Below the pieces are notes generated by a model. It saw only the letters and a program-made list of their open reading frames with translations. It did not search any database and was not told the origin of the DNA. The position numbers were made by a program, and so were the translations under genes. From Scenedesmus sp. ARA3 (taxonomy: Eukaryota; Chlorophyta; Chlorophyceae; Sphaeropleales; Scenedesmaceae): 64,000 bases of DNA. Location of the stretch: contig RWJK01001124.1 of the NCBI GenBank assembly GCA_004335835.1, positions 169,793 through 233,792 on the forward strand. Reading direction: 5' to 3'. This document shows positions 115 to 59,176 of the stretch, piece by piece. The number at the start of each line of letters is the position of its first letter. The stretch's first letter is position 1.

Positions 115-3100
115 TCAGCGCAGCGCAGCATCCCACTGCCCGCTGCATCTCAGCTGCAAGTGCGCACTTGCAACATAATATGTCCTTCCTGCCATGTGCA
201 GAACCACCAGCACATAGACCCGCACAGCCATCCCTTTCCCCAACAAAACTCCAAAACCCCGACTCACCGCTGCTTCCTTGATTCCATCAGCCTCATTCGC
301 TTCATCAAAGTCAAAGTCGCTTTCATCCCCGTCAGCAGCAGCAGCAAACGAGGCAAAGTCTGCCTTGACCCGCTTCGCCTTCTTTTGCTCTGCCTTGGCC
401 TTCTTGGGGTTGTGCTGGCCCACAGCATTGTACAGCTCCACATTCTGGCCTGCCTTGCCTGCTGCTGCTGCTGCTGCTTTGCCGCTGGTGCTGGGCGCAC
501 CATCCTCATCGTCCATGGCATCTGCAGGGCGGCAACAACACACCAACTGACTTAAAAATATATCATGTAAGCCCAACTTCTGTGTCGCTATCTTGGTATG
601 CACACGCCTGCCTGTATGCGGTCGCTGAGCTGCAACAAGCAAGCGCTGCATCATTGCTGCTGTCTCAGCATGTATGTTCCAGCAGCTAGCGCTGCTGCTG
701 CTGCTGCCGCACTCACCCTCGCCATCTGCCGCCTGCTGCTGCTGCTGCTCCTCGGCCTCCTCCAGCTGCATTGCCACTGCGCCTGCTGACTGCGCCTCAA
801 AGAATGCAGCGCCGTCATCCTCCAGGGAGGGCAGGTGCTGGATGACAGCTTTTGCCTCGTCAGCAAACACCCTGCAGGAACGCAGATGACGTTACAAATA
901 CGGCAAATGTTCAACATGATGCTGCAGCAGAGGCAGGGTGCAAGACACGCAAGGTTCGCAGGGCAGGACGGAGTCAACAGTGATGGTAAAAGCTGGCTGC
1001 AGCACCAAACACTCATGGTTGGTTTCTGCAGCAGCAGCTGTGCATTGCGAGACAAAGGGCGCACAACAGCAGTTTCTGAGGCTTGATAAGACAAGCTGGT
1101 AGAGCAACATTGTGGGTGCCATATGGAGCCTTGTGCAGCCCACACTCAGCTGCCGCGCCAGAAGACCTGGCGCAGCAGCCAGAGCCGCTAGGTAACGATT
1201 GACATCCGGCTGTGGTGTTGGTTGAACATACTAGTTGTGCAGCTACTTCACACAGCTGCACAACACTCTCGCAACCTTGCGGCGCGCCAGCCTTGCCCAA
1301 TGCATGCTTATGCGCCGCAGCTGAGAAACCATCGCGATTTCATACGCGCTCTCAAACATTGGACAAGGTTAAACCGGCAATAGTAACGATACTTGCAGCA
1401 CACTCGGCAACTCACAGACCACAACAGCAGCGCAGCGCAGGGTTCAGCCATTCAAGTGCCTGCGCCACACACAGCCGCCCATGCTGTGACCACCTCAAAC
1501 AACCGACAGACACACACACCCAGCAGCACGCTCAACAGCCCACAACAGCAGCAGCACAGGGCGAGTGCCTAACGTCTTAAACGTTTCAGCCACTCACGTG
1601 TCTGCATCAAACTCCGCGGCCCAGCTCGTCACCACCTCTGCTGTGTTGTACTGCGTGTTCTTTGCCTTGGGCGGCAGCGTGTAGTAAGGGATGCGGCCCT
1701 CATTCCAGTCTTGCAGCACAATGCGCGCAGCAGCCTGCGCGACGACGAGATGAGGAAAGATGGCACAACATATGAGTGGAGCAAAAGCAACACAACCGGA
1801 TGTGGCGCTCATTCCAGTCTTGCAGCACAGTTCGAGCAGCAGCCAGCGCCGTGGATGCGAGAAGCAATGAGAATGCGCAAAGCAGCGCAGCAGGAAGCTC
1901 ACACGTGTAGCACACGCAAAGCAATTGAACATACACTACCTTTTTGATAAGATAGCATGTGATCAGAATTGCTCTTGAGTTGTGGGTGCCGGATATTCGA
2001 AGATCAGTGCATGCTTTTGACTTCCCATCCCCGGAGATCCGCACCGCTGCTGCTGTTGCCCCGTCTTGTACCCGGGCCGGCACTGGCAGCAGCCGGAACA
2101 GGTCTTCACTCAGGGGCTTGGCAAACACACCAACACACGTGCATGCTGCTGCGCTGTTGTACCTAGGCTGCTCACCACACCAACATGCCTTTGGCATCCT
2201 AAACACTGCTCAATGAAAGGGTCTGGCACCCATAGTTGCAGCTGTGCTCCCATGCGATTCCGCCACACATTGATGCAACCTCTACCAAAGCACAGCAGCC
2301 CACCTCCACGTCCACGATGCCGCCCTTTTTGAGCTTGCCGCGTGCTGCAGCGATCAGCTGCAGGAACTGATCCACGCCCGCAAAGGCGCCGATCTTGTAG
2401 ACCGCCATCAGCTGCTTGGAGGGCACGCGCTTCAGGATCTCGCCCACGGGGGTGAGCGGGTCCGCCAGCCGCTCCACCTGCAGGTGAAGATGTTGTGTAA
2501 CATGTCACGAACTAGTTCAATGGGGTGAAACATGCTGCATGACATGATTGTGACGTGCTTCGAGCTCTCGCCCACAGGCGTGAGTGGGTCCCCCAGCCGC
2601 TCCACCTGCAGGAGACCAGACGTTTGCAGGAAAGCAAGAGGCAAAATGGTTTGAACTTGCAGCATTTAACTTGCAGCTTTTAATTGTGACGGTTGAAGAA
2701 TCTTGCCAACAAGGGTGAGCGGGTCCTCCAGGCGCTCGATCTGCAGGTGAAGATGTTATGTCACATGTTACAAACCAACTCAATGAACTGGAGCAAGACT
2801 AAGAACATATCAGACCAGGCAGTGCAACGGCTGCTGCTGCTGCTGCTGCTGCAATGCCGCTGCAAACACACAACAGCTTCGCCTAACCCAATTCAGCCAC
2901 AGCCACATAACAGCGGCAGCGCACCTTGATGGCGTTGCGCAGTGCTGCTGCTGCTGCTCCCTCGCCGCTTGTGAACACGATACCAGGGGAGTCCAGCAGC
3001 CTGATGTGCTTATCCAGGTGGATCTCCTGCACGCCCTTGGTCACACCTGGCGTGCTGCCTACCTGCAGGGAAAAAAGAGTGAGATGAAATCAAGCGTGAG

Positions 3101-6100
3101 GGTGAGAACAGATTATCCGTAGACCACCTTATCCAGACACGGCTGCTATTCTGCTGCGAAAGTATTACAGATGCATGCAATGGCTCTGATAAACACAAAC
3201 ACGATGCATGGCCCGACTCATCTAGCACTTCAAGCTGAGGTGCTTGCAGCTTCGCATTTTACCAGATGTCTGTGGTGGCGTATCCCGCTTGAACGCACAG
3301 TGAAACCCCTCTATCTATCAAGCACTCCAGGGCCCACCTGTGCCACGCGTGCCCGCTTGAGGCTGTTGATCAGCATGCAAGTAAAGCTTGGAACACACAG
3401 GGCTCGCAAAAGCAATGCAAAACATAACCCACGGCTAAAAGTTCAGCTCACACAGCACACCCAGGGCCCACCTGTGCCACGCGTGCCCGCTTGAGGCTGT
3501 TGATCAGCATGCAAGTAAAGCTTGGAACACACAGGGCTCGCAAAAGCAATGCAAAACATAACCCACGGCTAAAAGTTCAGCTCACACAGCACACCCAGGG
3601 CCCACCTGCGCCACGCGTGCACGCTTGAGGCTGTTGATGAGGCTGGACTTGCCCACATTGGGCAGCCCCACAACGCCCACAGTGATGCTGCCCTTGCCAC
3701 CCATCGCATTCCTCGCATAGTTCTTCAGCAGCTGCAGCAGCGTGTCAGCACCCAGGCACGCAGACCCAGCAGCAGCGTACGACTGCTCGCTGCCTGCTGC
3801 TGCTGCTGCTGAGGAGCCTTTCTTGCCTTTGCCGCCTTTTACTGCTTTGGCCTTGCCCAGGCCCTCCTGCTGCTGCTGTGTTGAAGCTTTGAAGGCCACT
3901 GCAGGCAGCTCCTGGCGGTAGTGCTTCAGCCAGGCTTCTCCAACTTCACGAGGCACCAGGTCTGCGGGGTTCAGGGTTTACAGTGGAGGCAGGGGTTTTG
4001 GCAGCTGGGTTTAGTCATGTGCAAAGAAGCAGAGGTGGTAGTGCTTCAGCCAAGCCTCACCAACCTTGCGAGGCACCAGGTCTGCACATATAATGGTTCA
4101 GCAGCAGCAGAGGTTGGTGAAGTTTGTAGGCAGCAGCGGAGGCGCAATGGTGTGAACATGCTACACTGAACTCAAAACAATGTGCAAGGCTGCAGCAACG
4201 GCTGGCGCACAGCACATCAAAGTATGACTGCAGCTGTGCTCCAACATAGCTATGATGAGAAGTGGTCACTGCATGACACACATGCAGCATGTGTCGATTC
4301 CATCACGGTGACGCACTCACCCATCTTGTTGAGCAGCAGGATGATGCGCTTGCTGGCGTCCAGGCTGCGCACGTAGCGCTCCACATCAGGGCAGCGGCAA
4401 CCCGCAGGGTCGCGTGCATCAAGCACCTGGCAACACCAGCAGCAGCAGCAGCAGCAGCAGGGGTCAGCAGGTTTAGCGGCGGGGCAACAGAATGAGCAAG
4501 CAGCTATGCAGTGGAAGTAGTACAGCTGGCTCACGCAACACTTGCTGAACACACACGATGCTTGCTGCACATGAGCCGTTGAACCAACGGGCTTGGCTAG
4601 GCCCAGGCAGCCCATGTACAGCAACAAGACATGGGAACACTGTGCAGCAGAACCCTGGCTGGGACCTGGCTGGGACTGGCTCACCTGAATCATCACGTCG
4701 CTGGCCTCCACCATGCATGCACAGCAAGCAGCCGCAGCTGCCATGCAACTCAAAATTGTATAATCAGAAACATGCAACCCAGAGCATGAGGCAGCTGCTC
4801 ACCTGGATGACCACATCACTGGCTTCCACCACGCGCCTGAACTCCTTGTAGAATGCGCGCCTGCTGTTGTCTGCGCACACACAGATTTGCAACAGCACAG
4901 CCACATATGCATGTCAGCAACATTGTGAAGCACGCAAGCTCCAGTGAGCCACGCACCTGTGCGTTTGGTAGCGAAAAGCACAAAGCACGGAGTGCTTGCG
5001 GCCTGCCTGATACCACAGAGCAGCAGGCTGCTGCTGCAGCTGCGGAATGTGGGTGCCGGATATTCGAAGATCAGTGCATGTTGTTTACTTCCCATCCCCG
5101 GAGATCCGCACCGCTGCTGCTGTCACCCCGTCTTGTACCCGGGCCGGCACTGGCAGCAGCCGGAACAGGTCTTCACTCAGGGGCTTGGCGAACACACAAC
5201 ATGCACATACTGAAACCTGGCCACTGTCTGCTGCTTTTCAAGTGCTTCCTGCTGCCTTCCTTTGCTGTCTCTAACCGACTTGTTCTCCGCTATACTTTTC
5301 ATTTGCTGATGCCTATACGGAGCACTTGCACACACCTGCATCTCCTGCTTTGGTGCCTTCGCTGGTCAGCTTTGCTTTCTTGCGCGCCTCAAAATCTGTT
5401 GCCTTGTGTGCTGCACTGGCCTGCAGCGCTGCCAGCTGCTGCAGGTCCTCCTGCTCATCATCCATAGCAGCTGCATTTCGCTCCTGTGTGTTGGCAGCCG
5501 TGTTTCAGCAGTGCAACATGGCAGCAGTGGTGATAGTAGTAATGTTAGCCTGAGCTTCTGCATCACATATAGCATGCATGCAATGCTAGCGGCCACACCG
5601 ATTTACTTGATGCCTCAAGACATTTTGCTTCTGCTTGCGTGAGAAGCAAAGTGGTTGCCATGATTGTGGGTGCCGGATATTCGAAGATCAGTGCATGTTG
5701 TTTACTTCCCATCCCCGGAGATCCGCACCGCTGCTGCTATCGCCCCGTCTTGTACCCGGGCCAGCACTGGCAGAGCCGGAACAGGTCTTCACTCAGGGGC
5801 TGATTCTGACATGCGTAAAGTCACCCTGCACAGCCATTCTGGAGCACACATGTACTGTGCGCTGCTCACCGCATGCGCTTTGCCTTGGTGTGCTGCAGGA
5901 AATGTCTGCTCATTTGGCCAGGCAGCTGCATTCCATGCTGCAACACCCTGCTTCTGCTCTGCTTCTGCTCCTAGCCAGCTCACCTCTCTGTTCCCTTTGC
6001 GCTCCTCGCGCTCGGCCTTGTCTGCCAGCAGCACCTGCTGCCATACAACACACCACCATAACATCCAGCTGCTGCTGCTACTGCAATCTAAACCTGAACA

Positions 6101-6774
6101 GCTCACCTCTCTGTTGCGCTTGCGCTCCTCGCGCTTGGCCTTGTCTGCCAGCAGCACCTGCTGCCGCTTCCAGGCCATCTCCTTGAGCAGCTCCTCCTTA
6201 AAAGGCCACTGGCTGGGGATCTCAGGGCCCACGGTTTTTAGGTCTTTGGGCTTGCGGCCGCTCTTCTTTAGCTCGCGGCGCTGCTTGCGGTGGTGCTCCT
6301 TGACCTTCTTGATTTGCTTGTACTGTGGGGCGGCAAGGGAGTGGGAGGTTTTCGTTAGGGTGAGGGGTTGGTGGTGGGTTGGTGGGTTTTTGTTGCGGAG
6401 GAAGTGTGGGTGGAGCGTGAAAGGGGAGGGGGCACAGCATGCGCGTGCAAGGACAAGATGCCAGTTTAATGTGTGGTGACAGGCAGCGCATGGGTGGGCT
6501 TCGTGCGTGCAAACACTTAAAGTGCTATTGTTAAGCACATGCTATGCAGTGAAGAATCCAGGATGTGTGCTGTGTGTGTACAGTGCATGCTGCTGGACGG
6601 CACCAGTGCCGGCGGCAGCAGCAGCAGCAGCAGCAACATGCACCCACACCATGCAGCGTGCAGCGCATGCTTGCGCGTATAGTCGACTTATGCATTCCAC
6701 AAAGCGCTTCACACCTTCTGCTTAAGCGTCAAGCGCTTGGACTTGGACTTCTTTGAGCGTTTTGCTCCCACCAT
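115..6774 (-). CDS. NSN1: Nucleostemin-family nucleolar GTPase (NSN1/GNL3-like), 12 exons
   Basis: Circularly permuted YlqF/YawG GTPase that acts in the nucleolus in large-subunit ribosome maturation (family knowledge). Exons in transcript order: 6774-6715, 6322-6107, 5483-5336, 4870-4803, 4426-4321, 3961-3606, 3062-2925, 2477-2304, 1734-1598, 871-717, 521-268, then to a TGA at 115-117. All phases agree, giving about 604 residues up to 268. The basic N-terminus ([14 protein letters not shown], then [15 protein letters not shown]) and the [10 protein letters not shown] stretch are typical of the family. Permuted G motifs run in order: DARDP (~167), NKMD (~197, split by an intron), GLPNVGKSS (~298), STPGVT (~321), DSPG (~342). 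Then comes [20 protein letters not shown] and an acidic poly-Gln/Ala tail. The last exon junction is uncertain: splicing at 268 or reading through both end at 115. Introns carry many junction duplications and three copies of a dispersed repeat. Confidence 0.9.
1197..1280. repeat. 84-bp direct repeat, right copy
   Basis: Second identical copy of the sequence at 1-84. It lies in the NSN1 intron between 872 and 1597. Confidence 0.85.
1803..1850 (-). repeat. Decayed copy of an NSN1 acceptor and exon start
   Basis: On the minus strand this reads as a diverged copy of the start of exon 1734-1598 (residues like TVLQDWNE against IVLQDWNE). It lies about 110 bp upstream of the real exon start, and its acceptor AG is lost. 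Confidence 0.7.
1981..2130 (-). repeat. Dispersed intronic repeat, copy 1 (~150 bp)
   Basis: Begins GTGGGTGCCGGATATTCG on the plus strand. It is nearly the same as 5048-5197 and 5665-5801, all in the same orientation and each in a different NSN1 intron. The minus strand of this copy is open in one frame (for example [19 protein letters not shown]), so it may derive from coding sequence. I do not recognise the source. Confidence 0.85.
2440..2750 (-). repeat. Three tandem copies of an NSN1 acceptor plus exon start
   Basis: CTGCAG followed by a [16 protein letters not shown] exon start occurs with first exon bases at 2477 (real), 2605 and 2740. Only the 2477 copy stays open to the next donor; the upstream copies hit frame changes or stops. 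Flanking intron (AAGATGTT...CATG) is copied along with the 2477 and 2740 junctions. Confidence 0.85.
3327..3650 (-). repeat. 134-bp tandem repeat of an NSN1 exon end plus donor
   Basis: Units 3327-3460 and 3461-3594 look identical, and a third partial unit at 3595-3650 is the real exon end (donor after 3606). Each unit holds the LKRARVAQ exon end, the CAG|GTGGGC donor and about 100 bp of intron. The two intronic copies lie downstream of the real exon in transcript order. Confidence 0.9.
4036..4087 (-). repeat. Upstream copy of an NSN1 acceptor and exon start
   Basis: About 50 bp closely match 3916-3967 and sit exactly 120 bp upstream (transcript sense) of the real junction at 3961/3962. The copy carries GCAG|ACCTGGTGCCTCG and the following codons with several substitutions. 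Confidence 0.85.
4679..4715 (-). repeat. Downstream copy of an NSN1 exon end and donor
   Basis: On the minus strand this repeats [10 protein letters not shown] and CAG|GTGAGC, a copy of the end of exon 4870-4803 placed about 120 bp into the next intron. Confidence 0.8.
5048..5197 (-). repeat. Dispersed intronic repeat, copy 2
   Basis: Near match to 1981-2130, with a TTGTTTAC variant in place of CTTTTGAC. It lies in the NSN1 intron 4871-5335. Confidence 0.85.
5665..5801 (-). repeat. Dispersed intronic repeat, copy 3
   Basis: Near match to the copies at 1981 and 5048, closest to 5048, with a short internal deletion around CTGGCAGAGCCGG. It lies in the NSN1 intron beginning at 5484. Confidence 0.85.
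5984..6037 (-). other. In-frame duplicate (cassette) exon in an NSN1 intron
   Basis: A near copy of the last 54 nt of NSN1 exon 2 plus its donor lies in the following intron. It has its own acceptor (ATGGCAG before the first base, 6037) and the same GAG|GTGAGCTG donor (last base 5984). The 18 codons are in phase 0, matching both neighbours, so inclusion would repeat 18 residues with two changes (K to E, R to G). Whether it is spliced in cannot be told from DNA. Confidence 0.6.
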
Positions 6775-8721: not shown

Positions 8722-10907
8722 ACAATGCCACAGGTGGAGCCCGGATGGGCTGTCCGTGGTGCTTGTGGCAGACTTTTGTGTGCGCATGACCATCTGGTCG
8801 CTGGTGGACCGCAAGTGCACCTACCTGCCTGGGCCCAAGCATGCCAGCAAGGGCATCGCATTCTCGCCACGCGCAGACCAGCTGGCAGTGCTTGAGGTAA
8901 GCAGAGAGCTGGTGTAGTTGTCCAGGGGCATTGCGACCAAATTGCTTGCACAGACCCAGCCAAGGGCGCATCATTGGCAGCAAGCAGAGTGCTGTCTGGC
9001 ACGCTTGTCATTGTCATCAATTTCGTGGACATGCCTCACCGCCTCCACGCTCACCCATCCTGTCACAGTTTGCTGCATGGTGCTCTGTGACCTCGGCTTC
9101 TGTATGCCTTGCTTTTGGGAAGCTGCTTCCTGTCCCTATTGTTCCCTTGCCCATGCAGCAAAGACTGCAGAACAGGCTAGCACTGTACAGCACCAGCAGC
9201 GGCTGCGCAGGTGATTACCCTCTTTTGCTGCATCTTCTCCCTGTGATCAAGTCCACAAACTGCTGCGTGTGTCCGCTTTTCCTGTCCATGCAGCGCAAGG
9301 ACTGCAAGGACTGGCTGGCACTCTACAGCACCAGCAGCGGCTGGGAGCTGCAGGCGCGGCTGCAGCTGCCAACCCTGGACGCTGCTGACCTGTCCTGGAG
9401 CCCAGACAGCAGCAAGCTAGCTGTATGGGACAGCGCGCTGACGTATGCTGTGCACGTGCTGGGGGCTGATGGGGAGGCCTTGGGCAGCTACAGCGCGTAT
9501 GGTGATGGCCTGGGCGTGCGCAGCGTGGGGTGGTCCCCAGGAGGCGACTTGCTGGCAGTGGGCAGCTACGATCAGGTGGGAGCGGTGGCCTGGGCGTTGG
9601 ATCAATAGTGTGAGTTGCATTCTGTACTGAACACTTGTGATGGCTGCACGGTGTTGCCGTGCTCTGCGTTGCGGTTGTTGCGCGATGGTGGCGACATACC
9701 AAAAGGAACTGCACAGTGATGTGTCACGTGTGTCTTGCGCTCACGCCCTGCAGGTGGTGCGGCTGCTCAACGGCAGGACGCAGCAGCTGTTGCTGGGGTG
9801 CAATCACTCTTGCATCTCGCATGTGTTCACGCACGTGTTGCCTTGCTTTCATGCTGCAGGTGGTGAGCATATCGAACAGCATGACGTGGCAGCCGCTGCT
9901 TGAGTGCCGCCACATTTGCATTCTGAACACACCCACACGTGCTGCCTTGTGTTCATGCGCAGGTGGTGCGCGTGCTCAACGGCGTGACGTGGCAGCCGCT
10001 GCTGGAGTGCCACCACGGCAGCCCAGTGGACGAGCCTGCGCAGGTGGCAGTGTACCAGGAGGTGGAGGAGCCGCGGGGGGTGCTGGCGCCGCTGCAGGTT
10101 TGTATCATTGTGTTGCAAGAGCAATTGTTCAGATGCATGCAGACAGGCCAATGACAGTGGGTATGCGGGTTTGCTTCTGCGTGTTGGTAGGCAGTGGAGG
10201 AGCCGAGCGGCATGCTGGCGCCGCTGCAGGTGCGTGTTTGGATGTTTGAGTCCTGCAGTTTGCTTAACGGCCTTCTTCACTCTGCTAGCATGAGACGAGT
10301 TGCACATCTCAAGGGTTGTGGCATTGGCAGTGCAGCCAACCGTTCAAGGCAGTTCGTGGCAGGCAGCGTACTGCACCGCATGGACTGTTTTGTGAGCTGA
10401 CCCTGTGGTGCCGTTCATTTACCTCGTTCATGTGTGTGATTGCAGCTGCAGCAGCAGCAGTCCCCCGCCGCTAAGCGCGACACGCGTGCGCGCTACCTGG
10501 TGTGCCCGCTCCCTGTGGAGGTCACCAACATCACGCCGCCCACAAACAAGCCAAACCCCAAGCTAGGAGTCGGCAGCATTGCCTGGAGCCCCAACAGCAG
10601 CCTGTTGGCAACAGTAAACGAGAACATGCCGCATGCTGTGTGGATCTGGGATGTGCTATCTGCCTCGCTGGCGGCTGTGCTGGTGCATATCGGCAGCGTG
10701 CGCAGCATGGCATGGTCTCCTGCAGGAGACTACCTGGCGGTTGGCACCGGCAACTGCCGCGTGTATGTGTGGACGGCTGAGGGAGCGAGCATCGTGCACA
10801 TTCCGCTTGCAGGATTCAGTGTGTCGCAGCTGGCGTGGGCGCCTGATGGCAGCAGCTTTGCGCTGATGGATCAGGAGGCGTTCTGCTGCGCGTACGTCAC
10901 CAGCTAG
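7345..10907 (+). CDS. WRAP73: WD-repeat protein WRAP73 (WDR8 family)
   Basis: WD40 protein which, in other eukaryotes, acts at centrosomes/spindle poles and in cilium formation. Exons: 7345-7347, 7775-7950, 8295-8405, 8734-8896, 9294-9575, 9963-10097, 10446-10907 (TAG). All phases fit, giving 443 residues, close to the usual ~460. Recognised along its length: [75 protein letters not shown], and a C-terminal [19 protein letters not shown] block. The start is inferred: ATG at 7345 is followed directly by GTATGC and joins to GACTTCAGC, giving M-DFSE as in the family. The sequence is also open upstream of exon 2 to ATGs at 7613 and 7658, so a longer N-terminus is possible. Introns before exons 5 and 6 and after exon 6 hold junction copies. 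Confidence 0.9.
8685..8720 (+). repeat. (CTG)12 tract before the WRAP73 exon 4 acceptor
   Basis: Twelve CTG units end 13 bp before the acceptor CAG of exon 4 (first base 8734). The tract lies where a pyrimidine tract would be. Confidence 0.9.
9130..9215 (+). repeat. Upstream copy of the WRAP73 exon 5 acceptor and start
   Basis: CCATGCAG|CAAAGACTGCAG with CTGTACAGCACCAGCAGCGG following mirrors the real junction 135 bp downstream (first exon base 9294). Frame and several residues have decayed. Confidence 0.85.
9740..10229 (+). repeat. WRAP73 exon 6 junction array: two acceptor copies, one donor copy
   Basis: Copies of CAG|GTGGTG plus the exon start begin at 9754 and 9860; the real exon begins at 9963. 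After the real donor (10097) a copy of the exon end, GAGGAGCCGAGCGGCATGCT to CTGCAG, ends at 10229 with its own GTGCGT donor. One exon is therefore flanked by duplications of both its junctions. Confidence 0.9.
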
Positions 10908-23768: not shown

Positions 23769-26700
23769 GAGCAGACGTGCCACAGGCAGCAGCAGCAGCA
23801 TGACCAGACAGGGGCCAAAGCAGCTGTCCCTGCTTCGCCTGCAGTTCATGGTTGGTGCAAACAGTAGCAAGGCTGGCACAGGTGCCACAAAATGCCACAG
23901 CACCGCGGCCCTGTAACAGGAGCAGGAGTGCTGATGTAGAGCAGCAGAACAACTACTTGACTGGCAACAATTTCATTACATTACATTACATTACATGCTC
24001 CACTCAACGAGGAGTGGGAACCCCAGTCAGGAGCCAACGAGAGGCTCATAGGGGGAATTACATAGAGTACATCACATAACACACATCACTCATGTGATTC
24101 ACCATGTAATCTGCTTGCAGGGTACGGCCTGGGTCATGTGCCATCCACATTTGCCACCATGCGCTGCGGGGCGGGCTGGTACAGCAGCATCGTGATCGCC
24201 TGGGGCATCGTCGCCACATGCGGCGCATTCATCAGCAGCAGCGCGGGGTTGTGCCTGCAGCGCTTTTGCCTGGGGCTGGCTGAGGCTGGTGAGCGGCACC
24301 ATGATGGGTTCAAATGCAGGGTTTGTTTGCAGGGTTGTGATTGCAGGGTTTTCAGTGCAGCAGCAGCAGCAGCAGCAGCGCGGGGCTGTGCCTGCAGCGC
24401 TTCTGCCTGGGGCTGGCTGAGGCTGGTGAGCGGCACCATGATGGGTTCTGCAGCAGCAGCAGCAGCAGCAGCGGCGGCAGCAGCAGCAGCAGAGGCGTAT
24501 TGCTGAGGCTGGTGAGCGGCAGCATGCTTGCTCAGTGGTCGGCCGGCAGCCTGAAGCAGCAGCAGCAGCAGCAGCAGCAGCAATGGAACGGCACCTGCAG
24601 CTGAGGAGCCTGTGCGTCGAGCTGCTGCAGCACCAGCAGCAGCATAGGCGTACTGCGATAGCAAACATGCGTCACAGCTGCAGTCGCGACGGTGACAACC
24701 ACCGCCTTTTGCAGCAGGCCACCTGCTGCATAGCGGATGTGCTTGTCACCATGCAGCAACAGGAGCTGGACTGACATGCATGCAGTTGCACACGCATGCA
24801 CAGTTAGCATGTTTACACGGCATCGCAAGCAGCAAGGCACTGGCAGCTGCGCTGCGCAAGAAAGCCTGTCAGCAGCGCTGTTTTGCTGCTGCTGCTGCTA
24901 ACGCCGCGTTTCACCTGTTGCTGCCGCTGCTGATGCAGGTGCCATTCCCTCAGCGCTGCACCTCATGTCACAGTTTTACCCCGTGCAGATGTGAGTTGCT
25001 GCCCTGGAGCCCTTGACCAGTTCAGCTCAATGTCAAATGCAGCATTACAATAGTTGTTCCAGCAACAAGACGCTTTGAAAGCAGCAGCTGCTTGTCACGC
25101 ATGTACCTGCATAAGAAGCTTGCCTAGCAGCTGGCCTAAGCCAAAGTGTGTCAGCAGGCGCTTGATGGGCAGGTAGAGCCTGAGTTGCAATACTTTCGCA
25201 GCACCAGACATGGTGAGCATTGCAACCCTAGCTGTGGTTGCCTTACTACCAGCCTGTCAGCACAGCCTATACACCCAAGGCGGCTCAACACTCAACGCGC
25301 ACTGCCCGCTGCCTCTCACACCTTGCATGCTGCATTGCTGTTGCACTGCTGCTGCAACAGGCGCAGCAAGCCCTTCCTGGCGGTGACGCTGGCGAATGTG
25401 GTCAGCGTGGTGTTTGCTGGGCCGCTGGCTGCTGGCATCATGACCCTGGATGGGCGCGCAGGGCTCAGGGGCTGGCAGGTATGCAATCTGTTAGATTGTC
25501 ATATTTGTTATGATTCTGGTCAGCGTGGTGTTTGCTGGGCCGCTGGCGGCTGGCATTATGACCCTGGATGGGCGCTCTGGACTGAGGGGCTGGCAGGTGC
25601 GCAATCTGTTAGATTGTCATATTTGTTATGATTCTGGTCAGCGTGGTGTTTGCTGGGCCGCTGGCTGCTGGCATTATGACGCTGGATGGGCGCGCAGGAC
25701 TGAGGGGCTGGCAGGTGCGCAATCTGTTAGATTGTCATGTTTGTTATGATTGTGGTCAGTGTGGTGTTTGCAGGGCCCCTGGCGGCTGGCATTATGACGC
25801 TGAACGGCCGCGCAGGACTCAGGGGCTGGCAGGTATGCAGTTTTGTAGATTGTCATGTTTGTTATCGATGTGGTCAGCGTGGTTTGTACAGGGTCGCTGG
25901 CGGCCGGCATCATGACACTCAATGGACGCGCGGGGACCCAGGGGCTGGCAGGTGTGCTACGCTGGATTGCATGGTTTATCTTGTCAAGCATTGTCCATTT
26001 CTGATGCATGATTTGGACTGTGCCAATGTCATGACGCTGGACGGGCGCGCAAGGTTCAGGGGCTGGCAGGTGTGTTTCTGGGTTGAATGTCATGTCTGTT
26101 ACTTTTTGAACGCAAGTAACAAAATGGCAGGGCATCATCACGCTGGACGGCCGCAGGGCTCAGGGGCTGGCAGGTGTGCTTTTGTTTGATATCTGTCTCG
26201 TGTGTTATGATCGCGAGTAACACTGTCAGGGGCTGGCAAGTGCACTGCTGTTTAGTTTCGTTTGTTTTTTTGGCCACTTCTGGTACCAACAGTAATCGTG
26301 CACATGTCTGAAAAGGGGAGCCACAACGCGACAGGACTAAAATTAAGTCCAGTATGCCTTGTTCCTGCAACAGTCGGCGGTTACAAAGTTGATAGCTCAT
26401 AGCACATGGCACATGCGACTCACTCCAACGCTGTTTGTCTGCCTTCCTGCAGTGGCTGTTCATCATTGACTAAAATGCAGTCCAGCAGGCCTTGCTCCTG
26501 CAACTTGCAGCAGTGTGATAGTTTGCAGCAAATACAACTCACCCATGTATATGATGCTTGCCTTCCTGCAGTGGCTGTTCATCATCAAAGGCTTGCCATC
26601 AGTTGTTTTGAATTTCAAGTTTTGTTATTGTTAAATACGTCACTGTTACACAGCTCAAGTGTATGCATATATGCTGCTTGCCTGCCTACCTGCAGTGGCT

Positions 26701-34795: not shown

Positions 34796-35737
34796 GTGGT
34801 TAAGAGGCTGGAGGGTGGTGTGCGTCGGGGATGATGTGCAGCTGGCTGCCACAGGCAGCAGCGGCGAGGAAGTGCTGCAGGACACACAAGAAGCAGGAGA
34901 TCCAGCAGCAGCAGCAGTGCCGTTGGGATGGCAGGTGGTGCGCATGATGTGCAGCTGGCTGCCGCAGGCGCCTGCATGCTGCTACCACGGCGATGCACAC
35001 AAGCAGCATGCAACACCACAGTGCACTGTCTTTGCTTCAACCACATTCACACGTACTCACCCTGCAGTCGCTGCCCTCGGGGTTGAACGCGCTGGTGAAG
35101 CCCGCACATACGGATGAGCAGCATAAACAGCTTTCACCATCGCCACTGATTACTCACCCTGTAGTCGCTGCGCTCCGGGTTGAACGCGCCAGTGATGCCT
35201 GCTGCCGTCACCCCCAGCGCCAGGCCCCTGCCGGCAAGCTGCTGCACTGCGCTGCTGCTCAGCTCATCAACGGGGTCCAGCAGGTAGGCTGCCTTGACAG
35301 CAGCGGGGTCTGCATCGTTTGAGAAGCAGAGGCCAGGCAAAGCAGTGAGTGCCGCGCATGTTACACAGTCGACAAGGTAGGTCGCCTTGACATCAGAGGG
35401 GTCTGCGCATTGCATTTCTAGGGCGCAGGCCAGGAGAACTGATATCATTGGCAGAGAGTTGCAGCATAGTAGTTGACCTAGAACATTGTCAGGTAATCTT
35501 GAGGTGGGGCCCTGCATGTGGGAGAGCTGTGGTTCGCTGCAGGTCATGTGGCTGCTCTTGCCCAGGGCCGCACCTTGTGCATACTGCAGCGCAGCCAGCT
35601 TGCCTCCCCTGCTGTGGCCAGCCACTGCCACCCGGCTCATGTCCAGCTTGTTATGCAGCAGAGGGTTGCTGGCGTCCTTGTTCTGCGCTGCCAGCCACTG
35701 CAGCAGCTGAGGCAGCGCTGCGATCTGCAGGAGCAAC

Positions 35738-35772
<35 letters not shown>

Positions 35773-37153
35773 GCCGGCGGCAGCAGCAGGGAGGGCAGGG
35801 GCAACAGCAATTGGGGAACTAGGCAACTGGAGAGGGAAAACGGCAAAGCTGCTTGCTGCATACAGCGCGTCGGTCTTTGCGGCTACCAGGTTTAGCCAGG
35901 GGAACCGAGCCTCACAACAGCAGGCGCAGCCAGGATCTTGCGCGCAGCACCTGCAACACCGGCTACGTTCAAGCATCTCCATCATCAGCTATGGCTGCAG
36001 CTGAGGTCCATGGTGTTTGCTCCTACAGCAGTGATATCTCCACCTTTGCTTGTGTACGCCTGAGCGCAAGGATATGCCTGTCTGCAATATCGAGGCAGTG
36101 CTGCGCCTCACCTAGGCTTCACCTAGGGCTACACCTAGGATTCATCCCATGTGCTCCTACAGCAGTGATCCATCCTCTGTTGCGTGTGTACCTATCAGCG
36201 CAAGAATATGCATTTCCACATATGCAGGGCAGTCCTGTTCCTCACCTCCTGTTCGAAGCCCATGGTCTGAACAAACGGCCCGTAGGGCTGCGTGTCATAC
36301 TGCACAGTGGCATAGCCTGCTGAGGCCAGGCGCGCCATGACGGCCTGGTACCACGAGGCGCGCGCCTGCAGGGGGTGCATGGCGTTGCATCGTCAGTGAC
36401 ATGCTTGCATTTGCAGGGGTGCAACAGGCCTATGATTAGCAGCAGACATGGCTTCTTAAGCGTGAGTCATGCAAGAATGTGGTAGGTGAACCCGATTACT
36501 GCAAACAGGGGGAGCAGAGCTGCTCCTGGAAGGCAAAACTGTGGTAGGAACCAGCACTCTGTGGGTAGCGCTGTTTCATGCCCTGCTGCCGCTGCCACTG
36601 CTGGTCACAACATGCACAGTCGGTGCGGCCGTGCAACGCAACGGGCCTAGCCGATCGCTATTGGCTGAAGTGCAAACATACTGTCTCGCAGATGTGTTGA
36701 GCTTTGCAGTCACTGCTGGGCAATGCACATTGCTGCTGAATCTGCTGGTGTTGCAAGTGCTGACCTGGAAGCCTCCAAAGAACACCAGCACTGGTGCTGC
36801 AGGCCCATCATCGTTGGGCGGCAGGTTGATGGTGACGGATTTTGCGACGTCTTTGAAGCTTCCAGTGTACAACTCACTTTGTGCCAGCTCGCTCTCGGCG
36901 ATGACGATGGGCCATACCGTTGGGTCTGCTGGTGCTACTGCTCCTGTGAGCTCGGCAGCCTTGGTGAACGTGCAGGTGGCAGCATCTGCAAGCGCGGAGT
37001 AATTGTAGCGGTGTCAGGGTCAATGCGAGCAGTGTGCGCGGCAAGGTCCGCATGGCGAGGCACGTACAAACCCCAAGCCCATGCCTCACCTGGCAGCTGC
37101 TGTCCCAGGAAAGCACGTGCAGCGACAGTGCGCCTGGATATCTGTCGCGGCAT
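33088..37153 (-). CDS. CLH: Chlorophyllase with a long C-terminal extension
   Basis: Hydrolyses chlorophyll to chlorophyllide and phytol (family knowledge). Exons in transcript order: 37153-37090, 36985-36765, 36365-36246, 35724-35574, 35309-35158, 34359-34069, 33537-33088 (TGA). Phases fit, giving 482 residues. Recognised: LVFFGGFQ, YDTQPYGPFVQTMGFEQE, then LLQWLAAQNKD and KLDMSRVAVAGHSRGGKLAA with the nucleophile Ser ~173, AAYLLDPVDE with Asp ~197/200, and QLHIIPDAHHLQF with His ~255/256. The core is family-sized, but the last exon adds 150 residues rich in Gly, Ser and Ala with a GGHHHGG patch, which ordinary chlorophyllases lack. A short N-terminus (MPRQISRRTVAARAF) is Arg- and Ala-rich and could be a transit peptide. 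Introns around exons 5 and 6 hold nine junction copies. An extra exon near 33610-33710 is possible. Confidence 0.9.
33770..33970 (-). repeat. Two downstream copies of the chlorophyllase exon 6 end and donor
   Basis: On the minus strand the exon end for DELYHHML plus CTG|GTGAG occurs at boundaries 34069 (real), 33932 and 33785; steps are 137 and 147 bp. The intronic copies keep the donor. Confidence 0.9.
34360..35000 (-). repeat. Five upstream copies of the chlorophyllase exon 6 acceptor and start
   Basis: On the minus strand, TGCAG|CACTTCCTGGCC and the CGSQLHIIPDAHH codons recur with first exon bases at 34490, 34631, 34746 and 34874, and a partial copy near 34935-34980; the real one is 34359. 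Steps are 115-141 bp. Short CAG tracts (CTG on the gene strand) separate the copies. Confidence 0.95.
35050..35112 (-). repeat. Downstream copy of the chlorophyllase exon 5 end and donor
   Basis: The minus strand reads AFNPEGSDCR with AGG|GTGAGTA, a copy of the real exon end AFNPERSDYR (boundary 35158) moved 97 bp into the intron. Confidence 0.85.
35368..35410 (-). repeat. Upstream copy of the chlorophyllase exon 5 acceptor and start
   Basis: The minus strand reads GCAG|ACCCCTCTGATGTCAAGG, a diverged copy of the real exon start at 35309, 93 bp upstream. Confidence 0.85.
35744..35771 (-). repeat. CAG tract (CTG on the gene strand) before the chlorophyllase exon 4 acceptor
   Basis: A CAG run on the plus strand lies about 20 bp upstream, in transcript sense, of the exon starting at 35724. 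Confidence 0.8.
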
Positions 37154-50541: not shown

Positions 50542-51731
50542 TCATACTGCATAGTTCCCGGGCCGCACACCCACAGTCATCCAGCAGCCCTTGTAAGGCC
50601 CTGTATGGATGAGCTCCAAACAGAAGGTAAAGGTGAAGCGCTGCAAGCCATCAGCGCCAACATCACCAGCGCTGCTGCTGCTGCTGCTGCTGTGCCGTGT
50701 GCTTGCCAGCACCTCCACTGCCTGCACTGCCCGCTGCCCAACGCGTGTGGCCGGGAACACCTGCAGCAACAGCAAAGAGCAGCACAGCTTTAGTAGCCCG
50801 CATCAGCCAAGCGTCCTGTACTACAACCGCTACTGCACATGCTTGACCGCTAGCAAATCCCTTTGTAAAACCAGCGCTCACAAAGCTGCGATCACAAAGC
50901 TAGTAGTGCAAGCCAGCACAACAGCAACAGCAAAGCTCGCTGCTGCCAAGCATGACTCACCATCTCGCTGCAAGCCCTCCAGGTGTCGCAGCCAAGCAGC
51001 ACATCATACGGCGGCGAATGCAGCAGCTCCGAAAACTCTGCAGGCGTCAGCCACTGCTCCTGCGCTGCCCAGCTGCGCACCCTGCTGCTGCAGCCGTCAC
51101 TGATTGGACTGCTGCTCTCAGTGCCTGCAGGACTGTCGTCACCACTGCTGCTGCTGCGCCGCCTGCCTGCGAGCCTGCTGCTGGGGCGCGGGCTGCTGCC
51201 TGCTGCTTGGGGTGCTGCTGTGAGCAGGCGCTCACACTCGTACGGCTTTGCAAACGCCAGCGCTGTGTGGACACCTGCAGTGGTGTAGGGCAGCCACAGC
51301 ACACGTGATTGTGAGTGAGCGGGGTTTGTGCAAAGGACAGGACGGTTGATGCTTGCAGTGGCCTGCAAGCACTATCAGAGGCTGACCCGGAAACAGTCCC
51401 ACCACCATCAAGCATGTACAGCATGCAGTTAACACACTTATCCGCTGCTGGTGCTTGCGCCTTTCTCCCCACTCCTGCATTGCACACAGGCAGCATACAT
51501 GCAGCCAGGTCAAGGTCAACCCCTGCGGCGCTGTGGTTATTCTACACCATCGCAGCAACTCACCAGCATCGGGCTCTGGCCAGTCGTTTATCTGCAGCGC
51601 ATCCAGCTGCGCTGCAACTGCTGCTGTGGGCGGGTCCAAGGGGCTGGGCCGGCGGTGCTGCAGTGGGGCCTTGAGTGAGAGCTGGTTGAGGTGCGCGCTG
51701 AACTCAGATGCCAGCCTGTCTCCTCCTGCAC
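50542..51731 (-). CDS. DUF4864-family protein, 5' end incomplete
   Basis: Exons in transcript order: 51731-51564, 51274-50961, 50760-50542 (TGA), with consistent phases; at least 233 residues. Blocks AAVAAQLDALQINDWPEPDAG, TALAFAKPYECE, EFSELLHSPPYDVLLG and FTFTFCLELIHTG...GCWMTV follow the order seen in plant and algal DUF4864 proteins, where a starting helix, a middle block ending in a conserved LLG and a closing beta sheet with GCW are typical. The function of the family is unknown. A Ser-rich insert (RRSSSSGDDS) splits the domain. The first exon is preceded by at least one duplicated copy of its acceptor and start, so the true 5' exons are uncertain; MYDHPPAFLQAGAGG upstream is a possible start. 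Confidence 0.65.
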
Positions 51732-51960
51732 CTGCTTGCAGGACAGGCCAGAAACGGAAGAGACAGCACCAGAACCAGAGTCAGCAGGCAAGACAGCAGG
51801 TGAGAGCTGGTTGAGGTGCGCGCTGAACTCGGATGCAAGGCTGTCTCCTCCTGCACCTGCTTGCAGGAAAGCAGGTGGGTGATCGTACATGGCGAGAACA
51901 ACAGGCAGCAGCAGGAGTCAGCAGGCAAAACGACAGGTGGTTTATCATGGCATAAGCTAA
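51732..51960 (-). repeat. Upstream copy of the DUF4864 exon acceptor and start
   Basis: On the minus strand CAAGCAG|GTGCAGGAGGAGAC and the LASEFSAHLNQLS codons recur with first exon base at 51856, 125 bp upstream of 51731. A shorter related piece lies near 51900-51940. Confidence 0.8.
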
Positions 51961-54028: not shown

Positions 54029-57000
54029 ATGGCATCCACTGGTGCTGGCGACATTGCGCATGTGTACTTGCTGGAGCTGGGACCTGACATCGGTCATGAA
54101 GAAGTGGAGTTTGTGACGTATGATGACGCCACGCAGCAGCTGCTGGTGGTGAAAGGAGGCCATGTGTTTGCGTACGATGTGAGCAAAGGGCCAGCGGGCC
54201 ACAGCAGCCTCAAGTGGATGTACCCGCTGCAGGTGGGTTGGAAGTGTGGTCTGTGTAATGGACTGATGTTCACTGTTTTGCAATCGTTTGATGCTTGCTG
54301 TTGGTAAGCAGAGTTGGGTTTGGCGCTATGTGCTGCATGCGACGCTATGCTGATGACCAGTCATCGTGTTACTGAAGCAAACTGTACAATGGTATGGCCG
54401 CAATGCAGTGCAGCGCCGTGCGCACCTGCCTGGCTGCCTATGCACCCTCACATGTTCTTGCAGGAAGTGCCGCCGATGATTGCGCTGCGGCCGTCACTCG
54501 ACAAACGGCTGCTGGCGGTGCAGCGCAGCGCCGTCCTCACCTGCTTGGCTGCCTGTGCAACATATCTGCATGTTGTTGCTTGCAGGAAGGGCCGCCGGTG
54601 ATCGCGCTGCGGCCGGCACTCGACAACCGGCTGCTCCCAATACAGCACACCAATGTTCTCATTGCCTGACTGCCTGTGCAACATATCTGCATGTTGTTGC
54701 TTGCAGGAAGGGCCGCCGGTTATCGCGCTGCGGCCCTCACTTGACAACCGGCTGCTTGCAGTGCAGCGCAGCGCGGCCATGCTGGAGCTGGTTGACCTGG
54801 CCAGCGGGCTGTGCTTTGTGCACAGCATACACAAGGGCCGGGGCGACATCCTGTGCTTCTTTTTCACTGACGCGCCAGACACGGACATGGTCATCGTGAC
54901 GAGCCGGGCAGTGGAGCTGAACCAATTTGCTGCCAAGTGAGCGGGCTGAGGCTGGGTGGCAGCTGCTGTTGCTGAGGCTGACGTGTTGGATAGCAGCGAT
55001 CGGCTGCTTGCAAGTGCGTGCTGAGATGAGTGCGTGTGTGGGAGGTGGAAGGATGCCGGTGGCTGCTGAGTGTGCGATGCTCTGCTGCGCTTTTGTCCTG
55101 TGTCTCAGCTGCTGCATGTCCCACACAGTTGAGCATGCACAATCGCACTAGCTGTTCGGCTGTAGAACAACAGTCTCCTGTTATATCATTGCTACTACCA
55201 CATTCCGAATTCGTCTCTCTGCTGACCTGCTGCGTCCGACTGTGTTTTGTGCCCATGCGCCGTGCATGCGCAGGCGCCAGGGCCTACGCTGCCGCGAGCG
55301 CGTGCGCTGCAGCAACGCCTGGGCGCTGTACACGCACGAGACGCGCATGGCGCTTATCGGCTCTGCCACGCCGCCTCAGTCTGCGCTGGCCGCGTGGCAG
55401 TTTGCCAGCCACGGCATTACGCAGCTGCCGCTGTTTGAGCTGCAGGTGAGCGGCTGGGGCTGCTAGCATGCACGCAGCAGCACGTCAGAGTCTCGTGTTT
55501 TGGCCAGAGGCCTTCCTGCAGTGCATTGCTTGTTGGCGGATATGTTAATCGTATAGCCGCCGGTCCTATCACCTGACCCCCCCTGGGAGGGGTGATATCA
55601 GCGCCACCCCCAATCAACCCCCGAGGGGTGATATCACCACCCGTGATGAGTCATCCTGGATATGTTGCCTACAGCAGCTCTTGCATGCAGCAGCATGCCG
55701 ATGACTGTGTTGTGGCCTGAAGCCTTCCTGCAGTACGTGTTTCGCCATGCTTGTTGATGTCTTTCAGAGCGGCTTGCAACTGGTTCCTGCAATGCCGTGT
55801 GCTTGCAGGGCCCTTTGCCAGCGTCTGCTGCGATGCGGCAGTTCCTGCCACCCACGAGCCCCTACCAGCAGCAGCCGCTGCCCCCTGCTGCACCATCTCC
55901 CACACCAGCAGCTGGCGCAGGCCTCGCTGCTGGCACTGCCGCGGTAGCAGCGCAGCAGCAGCAGCAGCAGGAGCGCTCTGCTGCTGCCGGCGGCTCGGGG
56001 CATGCGCACAGGAACCTAAGCCCTGAGTGCATCTGGCTGTTGAAGATGTACGGGCGCGTGTATCTGGCGCATGCGGATGCAGCTGCCAGCAGGCTAGAGC
56101 TGTACCGCTTCTACACGGACACTATCATCCTGCAGCATGTGTATGAGCTGGTGTCGCCAAAGGTGAGGGCCACAAGCATTCCGGATTTTGCCTGAACCCC
56201 TGAAGATAATCTCCGCCCTGAACAAATACTCATTGGCGGGCTTGGACAAATCGCTGCTGTAATAGCTGTACAACCACTCTTGCTGGCCAATCGTTGACGA
56301 GCGTTTTGTGTGTTCCGCAACTCTTGATGTTACACGTTGTGCCCTGCAGGTGCAGCTGAGCGTCTTGGACAACACGCTGTGTGTCTGCTTCTGTTGGCTG
56401 CACAGCCAATGCAATATGCATTTCATTGTTGTACTTGCATGGCAGCACGTCGGTATCATGATGTGCATGATACTCTCTTTCAATTGCACTTCAGCTTTCT
56501 TTGTGCCGGCTGGCTCTTACATCAATATATGCAACACCACCATGCAACACACCGCTCTGCAGGTGCAGCTGAGTGTCGTGGACAATACGCTGCTGGTGCA
56601 CCACCTGGACACCTCAGTGGTCATGCTGCATGACGTGGCCCTGGCACTGCCAGCCAGCAGCCAGCTCGCCAACCCGCTGCCGCTGCGGCGGCTGCAGCTG
56701 CTGCCGCCAGAGCTGGCAGCAGCAGCGCTCGACGCAGATCAAGGTCCAGTCGATGCTGCTGCGGCCAGCAGCAGCAGCAGTAGCAGCCTGAGCAGGGCTG
56801 GCAGCCGCACGCTGCTCGTGCCTGGCAGCAGCAGCGTCACAGCTGCAGCAGCAGCAGCAGCTGCAGCAGCTGGTGAGGCTGGTGGAGAGGTGTATGAGGC
56901 AAGCGAGGCGTCACATGCTGCCAGCTGGCGCTACTTCATGCCTGGTATGATCCTGGATGTGGCCAGCAAGGCCATCGGCAGGCTGCAGCTGGACTTGCAG

Positions 57001-59176
57001 GTGCGCTAGCTGTACCAGCAGAACACGGGTGTTAACATGTCGTCATGAGAAGTTTCCAGCTTGTTTGGTCAAGTTGTTGTGTCGCCAGGCCATCGGCAGG
57101 CTGTAGCTGCACCTACAGGTGCGCGAATGATGTCAGCATGCGTGTAAAAGCAAAACGGGCCCGTTGACTGCAGTTGCGACACCGTTGTGAGTCTGTGGTC
57201 ACACCTGTTGTGCCGTCAAGCGCTGTGTACTCGTGGCACCTGCCTGTTCATGACAGCGTACAGTGGTGCGTGCATCGTATCTATCCTGCAGCCAGCCTTG
57301 ATTCAACGACCAAATAATGTCTTCTCGCGCGCTCCTGCAAGCATGCTGTCGGCCCTGACCCACCGGGATCTCTTCGTAATTGCTGACTCAAGTTCTGCTT
57401 TCACGTCCTGCAGGCCATCGCGGACTCCGCAGGCGACTGGCCGGCCCTGGTGGGCTTCCTGCAGCGCCGCAACGCGCTGCCGCCCGCCGCGCCGCTATCA
57501 GCGCAGCCGCGGCAGCTGCTGGTGGGCGTGGCGCGCACAGCACTCACGGAGCGGCTCAGCCTGGCCACAGTGCGGCTCATCTTTGACCGGCTGCTGCAGG
57601 TGGGCGGTGTGCACGCCTCGATAACAAGCAGCGCACATGACCTGTTCAGCAGCTTGGGGCTGTATTGGTGGCTACATGTGGGTGCAGTGCTGTTGTGGGT
57701 TTGTGTCGTCTGCCACATGCATGAGGCACATCACAGATGCTCAGTTCTCCTCGTGAGGGACCAGCAGTGGCATGTTGATTCACTGCTGACGTGTGGGTTG
57801 CTGGTGCGGCTGCATTGCAGGCTTACGCAGATGCTATGGCCCGAGCAGCAGCCAGCAGCAGCAGCAGCAGTGCCACAGGCGCAACAACAACAACCAGCGC
57901 CGCCGCAGCAGCAGCGCCTGCATCAGCTGCGCCTGCTTCTGCCACTGGCAGCGGCGCTGCTGCTGCTGCAGCAGCAGGCTTGCCGGTGCCGCTGCTGGCT
58001 GTGCCTGCAGTGACTGTCATAACGCCCAACGAGCTTGCGCGTGACCTGTTCCAGTGGGTGCATGATGAAGAAGTGGTGGATGCACTGTACCTGCAGGTGA
58101 GCCGGCAGCAGCAGCAGCAGCAGTAACGGCAGCAGCATGTTTTACACATGGATCTTCTGGCTGTGTGCCAGTGCATTGCCGCATACCTGGTTGGCGTGCG
58201 AGAGTTAGCGCTGCCATGGTCTCCACTGCTTGAAAGCCCTGGTGTTTGCATTGAGGTCCGGTCACGCAGCCTGCGCAATGTACAGTTGTTAGTCCGCGGT
58301 CGGCTGCTGCCGGCGGCACATTGCTACTGCTTTTTGCTCAGCTCACACTGTTGCTGCTGCTCCTGCTGCTTCGCTGCACACGCACGAGCGCAGGCCGTGG
58401 TGAGCGAGTACTGCGCAGCCTCAGACGCCGTCGGAGTGGTGCCGCCTGCCTATCTGCAGCTGCTGGCAGTCGACCTGCTGCTGCAGCAGGAGCAGCACTA
58501 CCAAGCAGTACAGCTGCTGTACAGCCAGCCGAGCTGCGGCTCCAGTCAGCTTGCTCAGCACTTGCTGGAAGTTGCAAGCAGCAGAGATGGAGCCTTGGGC
58601 TTAGCAGCAGCAGCAGCTGGCGTGGCAGGGCACGCTGGCGGGATCGCAAATGATTCAAGCGGCAGTGCAGGCAGCGACGTAGTAGCAGCAGCAGCAGCAG
58701 CTGGTGATGCTGCTGCAGGGCTGGCTGGGCCTTTGCTGCAGCGGCAGAGTGTGTATGACAGCAGCCCGGGTGCTGCCATGGCTTTGGCTCTCGCAATGGA
58801 TATGATGGGCCGCCAGGCTGTGCCAGAGCTGCGTGCCGTGTCTGGCAGCAGCAGCAGCAGCAGCGCAACAAGTGCAAGCGCAGCCGCCACAGCAGCAGGT
58901 GGTGCTGCTGGTGCTGGCGGGAAAGTCTGCACGGCGGCACTCGTGCGGCAGCTGCTCAGCACAGGGCAGGTGCTGCATGCGGCGCGGCTGGCGCGCACTG
59001 CGGGCGGCGTGGCGGCTGTCGGTGTGCCTGCGAGCACTTTCCTGCAAGTTGCAGCCGCCAGCGGGGATGCGGGCGCGTTTGCTGCAGTGTACAGGGTGAT
59101 GCGGCCACACCTGGTGGGCACTTGGCCTGACTTCAGCGCTGCGCGTGCTCACTTCTGGGGCACAACCGCTGCATAG
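54029..59176 (+). CDS. RMC1: RMC1/Mic1-like regulator of the MON1-CCZ1 complex
   Basis: Exons: 54029-54232, 54707-54936, 55274-55445, 55809-56162, 56563-57000, 57414-57599, 57821-58096, 58394-59176 (TAG); 880 residues, all phases consistent. In other eukaryotes RMC1 is a subunit of the MON1-CCZ1 exchange factor for Rab7 and acts in late endosome/vacuole traffic. The N-terminal beta-propeller-like part has FVTYDDATQQLLVVKGGHVF, IALRPSLDNRLLAVQRS, VTSRAVELNQF, WLLKMYGRVYL and VQLSVVDNTLLVHHLDTSVV. The C-terminal helical Mic1 domain has LVGFLQRRN, ITPNELARDLFQWV, LLQQEQHYQAVQLL and VRQLLSTGQVLHAARLARTA. Ala/Ser runs enlarge several loops. Introns before exons 2 and 5 and after exon 5 carry junction copies. 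Confidence 0.9.
54440..54760 (+). repeat. Two upstream copies of the RMC1 exon 2 acceptor and start
   Basis: CTTGCAG|GAAG plus the PPVIALRPSLD codons occurs with first exon bases at 54464, 54586 and 54707 (real); steps are 122 and 121 bp. Some of the preceding intron, including TGCATGTTGTTGCTTGCAG, is copied too. Confidence 0.95.
55567..55642. repeat. Palindromic G/C-block element in an RMC1 intron
   Basis: GGGGTGATATCA occurs twice, and the second forms the perfect 12-bp palindrome GGTGATATCACC at 55627-55638. A TATCACC with a C-run just upstream could pair with either. Located in the intron 55446-55808. Confidence 0.7.
56340..56395 (+). repeat. Upstream copy of the RMC1 exon 5 acceptor and start
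   Basis: CTGCAG|GTGCAGCTGAGCGT with the LDNTL codons lies 213 bp before the real start at 56563. Confidence 0.85.
57085..57125 (+). repeat. Downstream copy of the RMC1 exon 5 end and donor
   Basis: GCCATCGGCAGGCTG...CAG|GTGCGCG, 118 bp after the real boundary at 57000. One change gives an internal TAG. Confidence 0.85.

Follow-up and report, generated by a model that had tools for sequence, protein, structure and literature searches.

Junction-centred tandem duplications of about 120 bp at exon-intron boundaries in a Scenedesmus genome

A stretch of 64,000 nucleotides of the green alga Scenedesmus sp. ARA3 (assembly GCA_004335835.1, contig RWJK01001124.1, positions 169,793 to 233,792 of the forward strand; this whole stretch is called here the window) contains protein-coding genes in which short segments spanning a splice junction occur in tandem. 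An earlier reading of the window, referred to below as the original prediction, had noticed these repeated exon-intron boundaries; they are real and extend past the window. The curation of 248.6 kb of sequence gave 44 arrays that span a junction and together hold 66 extra copies; 22 of these arrays are in the window and 22 outside. Twenty-four are donor arrays with the copies downstream and 20 are acceptor arrays with the copies upstream. This is the geometry originally described, and it is what is expected of any direct tandem duplication crossing a junction. The duplicated units are junction-centred, and a several-fold bias of the duplications to junctions is likely. As an explanation, a recurrent tandem duplication of about 120 bp, biased to splice junctions and tolerated as the original junction stays in use, stands in our judgement at even chances.

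The sequence analyzed comprised the window plus 184.6 kb, the latter consisting of 69.8 kb upstream on the same contig and, from other contigs of the assembly (87.3 Mb in 1567 contigs), twelve stretches no longer than 10 kb. It included about 10 kb of N, and the stretch L007 (889 bp) was outside the analysis. The models of the RMC1 gene and of the valyl-tRNA synthetase gene (VARS) were 98% and 99% identical, respectively, to Tetradesmus obliquus proteins, in each case over 95% of the query, so the source organism is, as judged from these proteins, T. obliquus or very close to it. Arrays were curated from the exons of a gene finder self-trained on the analyzed sequence (splice consensus CAG/GTGNG for donors and TGCAG for acceptors) and from reading by eye. 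Since the gene finder fused neighbouring genes and occasionally called a copy an exon, the junctions were curated by hand. Copies with more than half overlap were left out of the copy listing.

The repeats far exceed those of shuffled sequence: direct repeats with lags of 35–400 bp gave 269 segments at a score of at least 16, versus one in a dinucleotide-preserving local shuffle. Considering the spacings between neighbour copies, 60 out of 66 were within 79–148 bp, which bears out for the whole sample the spacing of mostly 93–147 bp noted originally; none was below 79 bp, and the other six, of 181–240 bp, belong perhaps to arrays that lost a middle copy. In the 38 arrays with a first spacing below 150 bp, the spacing was 122.8 bp (standard deviation, SD, 14.7), the exon part of the unit 42 bp (SD 16, maximum 80) and the intron part 81 bp (SD 19, minimum 38), donors and acceptors being much alike in the three parameters. 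The young arrays show a clear whole-unit tandem character. For instance, a donor array of the MFS gene has a 118-bp unit in which about 80 bases from the end of the exon are followed by the first 38 of the intron, and units of 134 bp and about 148 bp were found in an NSN1 donor array and in one VARS acceptor array, respectively. The hypothesis that the junction falls anywhere in the unit with equal probability was rejected (Kolmogorov–Smirnov p = 3e-10, n = 36), and the fit was still poor (p = 0.009) when uniform positions were limited to intron parts of at least 38 bp; exon parts below about 20 bp are hard to detect, and the low side of this distribution is less certain than the high side. 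When the unit boundaries were listed, without statistical analysis, no single breakpoint motif was apparent.

Concerning the junctions in use, the VARS exons joined at the outermost junctions give a single frame of 776 residues, without stops, across 16 introns. Of 13 VARS copies, 11 were tested by swapping one junction for the inner copy, and a stop appeared in 10 of the 11. The VARS protein is collinear with the ValRS 1gax. Two homologues, P0023 (another T. obliquus annotation) and P0024 (87% identity; its name suggests the transcriptome assembly of a relative), are free of insertions at all 16 junctions; both carry small insertions in two VARS exons, away from those junctions. In RMC1, the annotation P0001 joins 54232 to 54707, passing over two acceptor copies. 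For VARS and RMC1, and for these two genes only, frames and homologues thus support splicing at the outermost junctions, as the original prediction had it. A side observation concerns the stretch L018 (254-346), where P0023 seems to fuse valyl-tRNA synthetase with the next gene, an alpha/beta-hydrolase. Three splicing schemes were considered and rejected. Recursive splicing of each unit, as a general cause, needs AG/GT at every unit, and several acceptor exons do not start with GT. In-frame alternative exons disagree with the spacings modulo 3, which are distributed as 18/24/24 among the 66. Tandem or mutually exclusive exons disagree with the same distribution, with the stops at the inner VARS sites and with the partial character of the copied exons.

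The proposed explanation is that segments of about 120 bp (79–148) would be repeatedly duplicated in tandem, the survivors being centred on splice junctions. The duplicated segment would comprise mostly 20–80 bp of exon end and 40–120 bp of adjoining intron; the extra copy would sit in the intron and slowly decay, further copies may join it, and the intron would grow. Because the original junction, now the outermost one, would stay in use, the protein would be unchanged. The copies would presumably be dispensable, and the excess at exon-intron boundaries would reflect a real bias of the duplication process. As an example of a putative chemistry, breaks, or replication or transcription trouble, could occur at a bound particle covering about 120 bp on the boundary, and be followed by fill-in and end joining.

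The explanations that compete with this one differ in what they take the excess of junction-spanning units to mean. The simplest, which we hold possible but unlikely, is that duplications of about 120 bp occur anywhere without bias, the exon-internal ones being purged and the intron-only ones soon becoming undetectable, while junction copies stay recognizable. Only 13 of the 44 arrays were still detectable with their exon parts hidden, 31 being missed; exon sequence keeps old junction copies recognizable and the raw junction excess is therefore inflated. Moreover, the median intron without repeats is 253 bp (154 introns), so that the unit is about half an ordinary intron and many duplications touching an intron must cross a junction. 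The original prediction had taken neither effect into account. Non-junction duplications of this size do exist, as that at −42101 (window coordinates; lag 125 bp, 97% identical). About six or seven repeats with lags of 79–150 bp were found in non-coding DNA, and seven non-junction arrays were counted by hand, at −42101, −30264, −29442, −16280, −14136, 32451 and 35985, minisatellites with units below 60 bp and one CCTG tract being left out. A later reading by eye placed the start of the array at 35985 at a donor, by which the count would become 14 versus 6, and the locus −15551 (lag 83 bp) is ambiguous. So, purely non-junction repeats are more numerous than the one clear intronic case of the original prediction. 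At lags of 10–60 bp there were 35 rows of purely non-junction repeats (several rows per array), three of them reaching the edge of a weak exon model; no row lay at a confident junction. Two wholly intronic repeats lie outside the 79–148 bp class: 55469-55522/55682-55734 (lag 212 bp) and 3340-3494 of L018 (lag 74 bp). The target was estimated for a 122-bp unit with 20–82 bp of exon: there are 33,000–37,500 possible starts at modelled exon edges versus 126,500–136,000 fully in non-coding DNA, the latter being 3.4- to 4.1-fold larger, so about 20–23% of the events would be expected to span a junction. The corrected odds ratio was 6.3–7.6 for 13 arrays versus seven non-junction ones and 4.9–5.9 versus nine; with four non-junction arrays it would be 11–13, and without correction 21–26. 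The odds ratio of 4.9–7.6 that persists after both corrections speaks against an unbiased process, as does the exon part, which never exceeded 80 bp at spacings below 150 bp although nothing hides larger ones. With both corrections, the junction-spanning duplications outnumber the non-coding ones about 5- to 8-fold in the 248.6 kb. Hence the excess originally claimed remains after the corrections, with a smaller size, and a junction-biased duplication process, one of the two options put forward at the time, draws support, though not proof, from the centring of the units on junctions and from the residual odds ratio.

The second of those options, selection for spare splice sites, is one form of a reading in which the copies are functional, as spare or decoy sites or in regulated unproductive splicing; we consider it improbable. 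It would explain that the GT was retained in 30 of 32 donor copies and the AG in 31 of 34 acceptor copies, and that donor copies with an intron flank less than 60% similar to the real one conform to GT[AG]NG in 18 out of 20 cases, while only 0.9% of random intron positions do. It would also explain the mismatches by codon position (first, second, third), which were 10, 7 and 35 in copies at least 90% identical (third-position share 0.67, 35/52) and 41, 29 and 72 in older copies (0.51, 72/142). Nevertheless, a third-position excess, estimated at 45–54%, also arises when a constrained exon is compared with a copy under drift, so the older copies, without a strong third-position bias, fit drift, and the younger ones are above it. 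Motif retention is also expected of young copies, the exon parts being mostly 80–98% identical, and it may come from this youth together with the replacement of flanks by indels. The modulo 3 spacings and the stops at inner VARS sites are unfavourable to functional copies; of the 42 copies with known frame, 4 contain in-frame stops and 4 contain indels, which points the same way. A further point against selection is that in 7 of 13 two-copy arrays each copy is closer to the exon than to the other copy; this is not so in the other six, which include two ties, and the copies of the NSN1 donor 3606 are identical. Altogether, drift is more likely than selection on the copies. A third reading, that the arrays represent intermediate or failed stages of intron gain through tandem duplication, seems to us quite improbable. 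It has a precedent in potato, where a new intron arose from a single duplication spanning an intron-exon boundary (PMC4974935). In the intron-gain model the intron equals one unit and ends at the second copy, whereas the arrays found here are inside longer introns (median 440 bp in the 18 array-bearing introns, with spacings of about 123 bp), and VARS retains no exon copy. Finally, an assembly artefact or a mobile intron-like element found no support and can be given hardly any weight: the copies differ mostly by 2–30%, a divergence that a misassembled single sequence would not show; genome-wide searches with two units returned no match beyond the array of origin except one of 40 bp; and the 44 units compared with each other gave 49 rows at E ≤ 0.05, the 20 listed being all of 13–31 bp, short matches that are likely caused by CAG-type repeats.

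Several observations do not sit easily with a junction-biased process acting on dispensable copies. The exon models were self-trained and the junctions hand-curated, and the exon range of 20–82 bp behind the target size was taken from the same data. The well-kept donor motifs in diverged flanks and the predominance of third-position mismatches in young copies could mean selection. Five copies with 94–98% exon identity have intron flanks at chance similarity (z below 2; matches tied to seven mispredicted exons were left out of this comparison), a pattern not expected from a single plain tandem duplication. In some arrays the intron flank is more similar than the exon part (RMC1 54586, NSN1 3472); one mismatch between exon and flank is accounted for by intron indels as read by eye (VARS 4491), and others may be due to gene conversion or later rearrangement. 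Furthermore, the arrays cluster, 18 of 30 gene blocks, several of them exon-rich, having none (simulated p = 1.5e-4). The p-values of the odds ratios (1e-5 to 3e-4 with seven or nine non-junction arrays) ignore this clustering in genes and are therefore too small. Codon bias was rejected as the cause of the clustering, as the coding score per base and the GC content at third codon positions did not differ between blocks with and without arrays (Mann–Whitney p = 0.42 and 0.39, 25 blocks).

Outside the window, nine of the 22 arrays belong to VARS, on another contig. Arrays are present in five of the twelve stretches from other contigs (L010, L012, L013, L016 and L018), and the genes carrying them include a SAM decarboxylase, a P450 and a tRNA pseudouridine synthase (Pfam). 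On the window contig, from about −45680 to −24419, similar exons recur several kb apart, which suggests tandem gene copies; no curated junction array lies there.

The arrays are associated with intron length. Among 184 confident introns, the 18 with curated arrays have a median length of 440 bp, and the rest 255 bp; arrays occur in none of the 115 introns under 300 bp and in 18 of the 69 longer ones, arrays in introns with mis-modelled exons being outside this count. According to Table 1 of PMC5966456, the mean intron of T. obliquus, 462 bp, is the longest of five green algae, the other four having 230–302 bp. The junction arrays may contribute to these long introns.

In comparison with known systems, the closest likeness found is to the potato RdRp gene (PMC4974935), with a tandem duplication across an intron-exon boundary and a unit holding both exon and adjoining intron, as in the arrays described here. 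The potato case is one event which made a new intron, whereas in the alga dozens of events affect both donors and acceptors, and neither VARS nor RMC1 has gained exon sequence. The Rogers model of duplication of an exonic AG/GT segment (cited in PMC4974935, with Drosophila cases in PMC2891723) is likewise local, tandem, based on splice motifs and neutral for the protein; in it an exonic segment is copied and the resulting intron is as long as the duplication, while here the segment spans an existing junction. Fill-in of staggered breaks by Pol alpha-primase followed by end joining yields direct tandem duplications and is a possible chemistry, but those introduced in PMC8355091 are short insertions below 100 bp in human cells, with no link to splice junctions. 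The narrow size centred on junctions is predicted by none of the potato case, the AG/GT model and break fill-in. Minisatellites share with the junction arrays the head-to-tail arrangement and the diverged copies, but in this sample their periods are mostly 13–56 bp and they lie off confident junctions. Mobile introner-like elements place the same sequence at unrelated sites, which is not so here, either for the two units searched in the genome or for the 44 compared pairwise. Beyond the potato case, no recurrent junction-spanning arrays were described in the titles and abstract openings listed, a coverage so incomplete that the absence is weak.

The window arrays, by conservative curation 34 extra copies in the 22 arrays, fall in six genes: NSN1 (nine extra copies), the WD40 (WRAP73-like) gene (four), the MFS gene (eight), the chlorophyllase-like gene (eight), a minus-strand gene at 50-52 kb (one) and RMC1 (four). 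About 41 copies had been claimed for six genes, and degenerate copies seen by eye together with the donor array at 35985-36247 bring the count close to that number. Window genes passed the Pfam cut-offs for MMR_HSR1 (GTPase domain), WD40 and Chlorophyllase, while the MFS_1 match of the MFS gene was below the cut-off. The name DUF4864 that the original prediction gave to one gene was not confirmed, a Pfam search with two open frames yielding no match.

On the minus strand, the gene for an NSN1-type GTPase has seven arrays: 1443..1638 (donor 1598, copy 1456 with the splice GT lost), 1689..1870 (acceptor 1734, copy 1843 with the AG lost), 2425..2757 (acceptor 2477, copies 2605 and 2740), 3321..3641 (donor 3606, copies 3472 and 3338; this is the array with the 134-bp unit), 3914..4115 (acceptor 3961, copy 4081), 4679..4834 (donor 4803, copy 4685) and 5948..6165 (donor 6107, copy 5984). 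The plus-strand WD40 gene has three: 9120..9343 (acceptor 9294, copy at about 9156), 9725..10016 (acceptor 9963, copies 9860 and 9754) and 10057..10231 (donor 10097, copy 10229). Four arrays lie in the MFS gene, also on the plus strand: 24230..24526 (donor 24288, copies 24425 and 24511), 25394..26231 (donor 25478, copies 25596, 25714 and 25832 with the 118-bp unit, degenerate copies at about 25950, 26077 and 26180, and a further one seen by eye at about 26230), 26440..26729 (acceptor 26696, copies 26572 and 26453) and 26798..27020 (donor 26821, copy 26927, degenerate near 27010-27019).

The chlorophyllase-like gene, on the minus strand, contains the arrays 33780..34103 (donor 34069, copies 33932 and 33785), 34288..34975 (acceptor 34359, copies 34490, 34631, 34746 and 34874, degenerate near 34963), 35054..35202 (donor 35158, copy 35061) and 35275..35406 (acceptor 35309, copy 35402). 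At 35985..36247 of the same strand, a 134-bp tandem duplication starts, as read by eye, from the donor by the exon 36246-36365, almost without exon part; it is outside the 44. The minus-strand gene at 50-52 kb has one array, 51675..51871, with the acceptor placed at 51725 and a copy at 51850, this junction being less certain. The plus-strand RMC1 arrays are 54381..54770 (acceptor 54707, copies 54586 and 54464), 56341..56592 (acceptor 56569, copy 56356) and 56960..57124 (donor 57000, copy 57118).

Other repeats of the window are of different kinds. In NSN1 introns, a sequence of 110–140 bp is present three times, at about 2000-2130, 5045-5185 and 5662-5801, two of the copies being 96% identical with a lag of 617 bp; it is perhaps a short dispersed element. 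An exact 84-bp repeat occupies 1-84 and 1197-1280, 1196 bp apart. Two arrays of a related 25-bp minisatellite, 41433-41651 and 46805-47271, are separated by 5 kb; both lie between coding exons, and the two genes concerned are similar.

The arrays point to a measurable route of intron lengthening, from the edges inward. They also offer a natural experiment in splice-site choice, with many introns bearing several near-identical sites, the outermost pair being the one joined in the two genes tested. That T. obliquus has a mutational process which duplicates a quantum of about 120 bp with the splice junction at its centre, at donors and acceptors alike, the boundaries being hotspots and the introns growing by copying their own edges, is in our estimation slightly short of an even bet. 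A mutational origin of the junction bias would make exon-intron boundaries a novel type of duplication hotspot. A rough extrapolation from the 44 arrays in 248.6 kb, which are unevenly distributed, would give an order of magnitude of ten thousand arrays in the 87-Mb genome.

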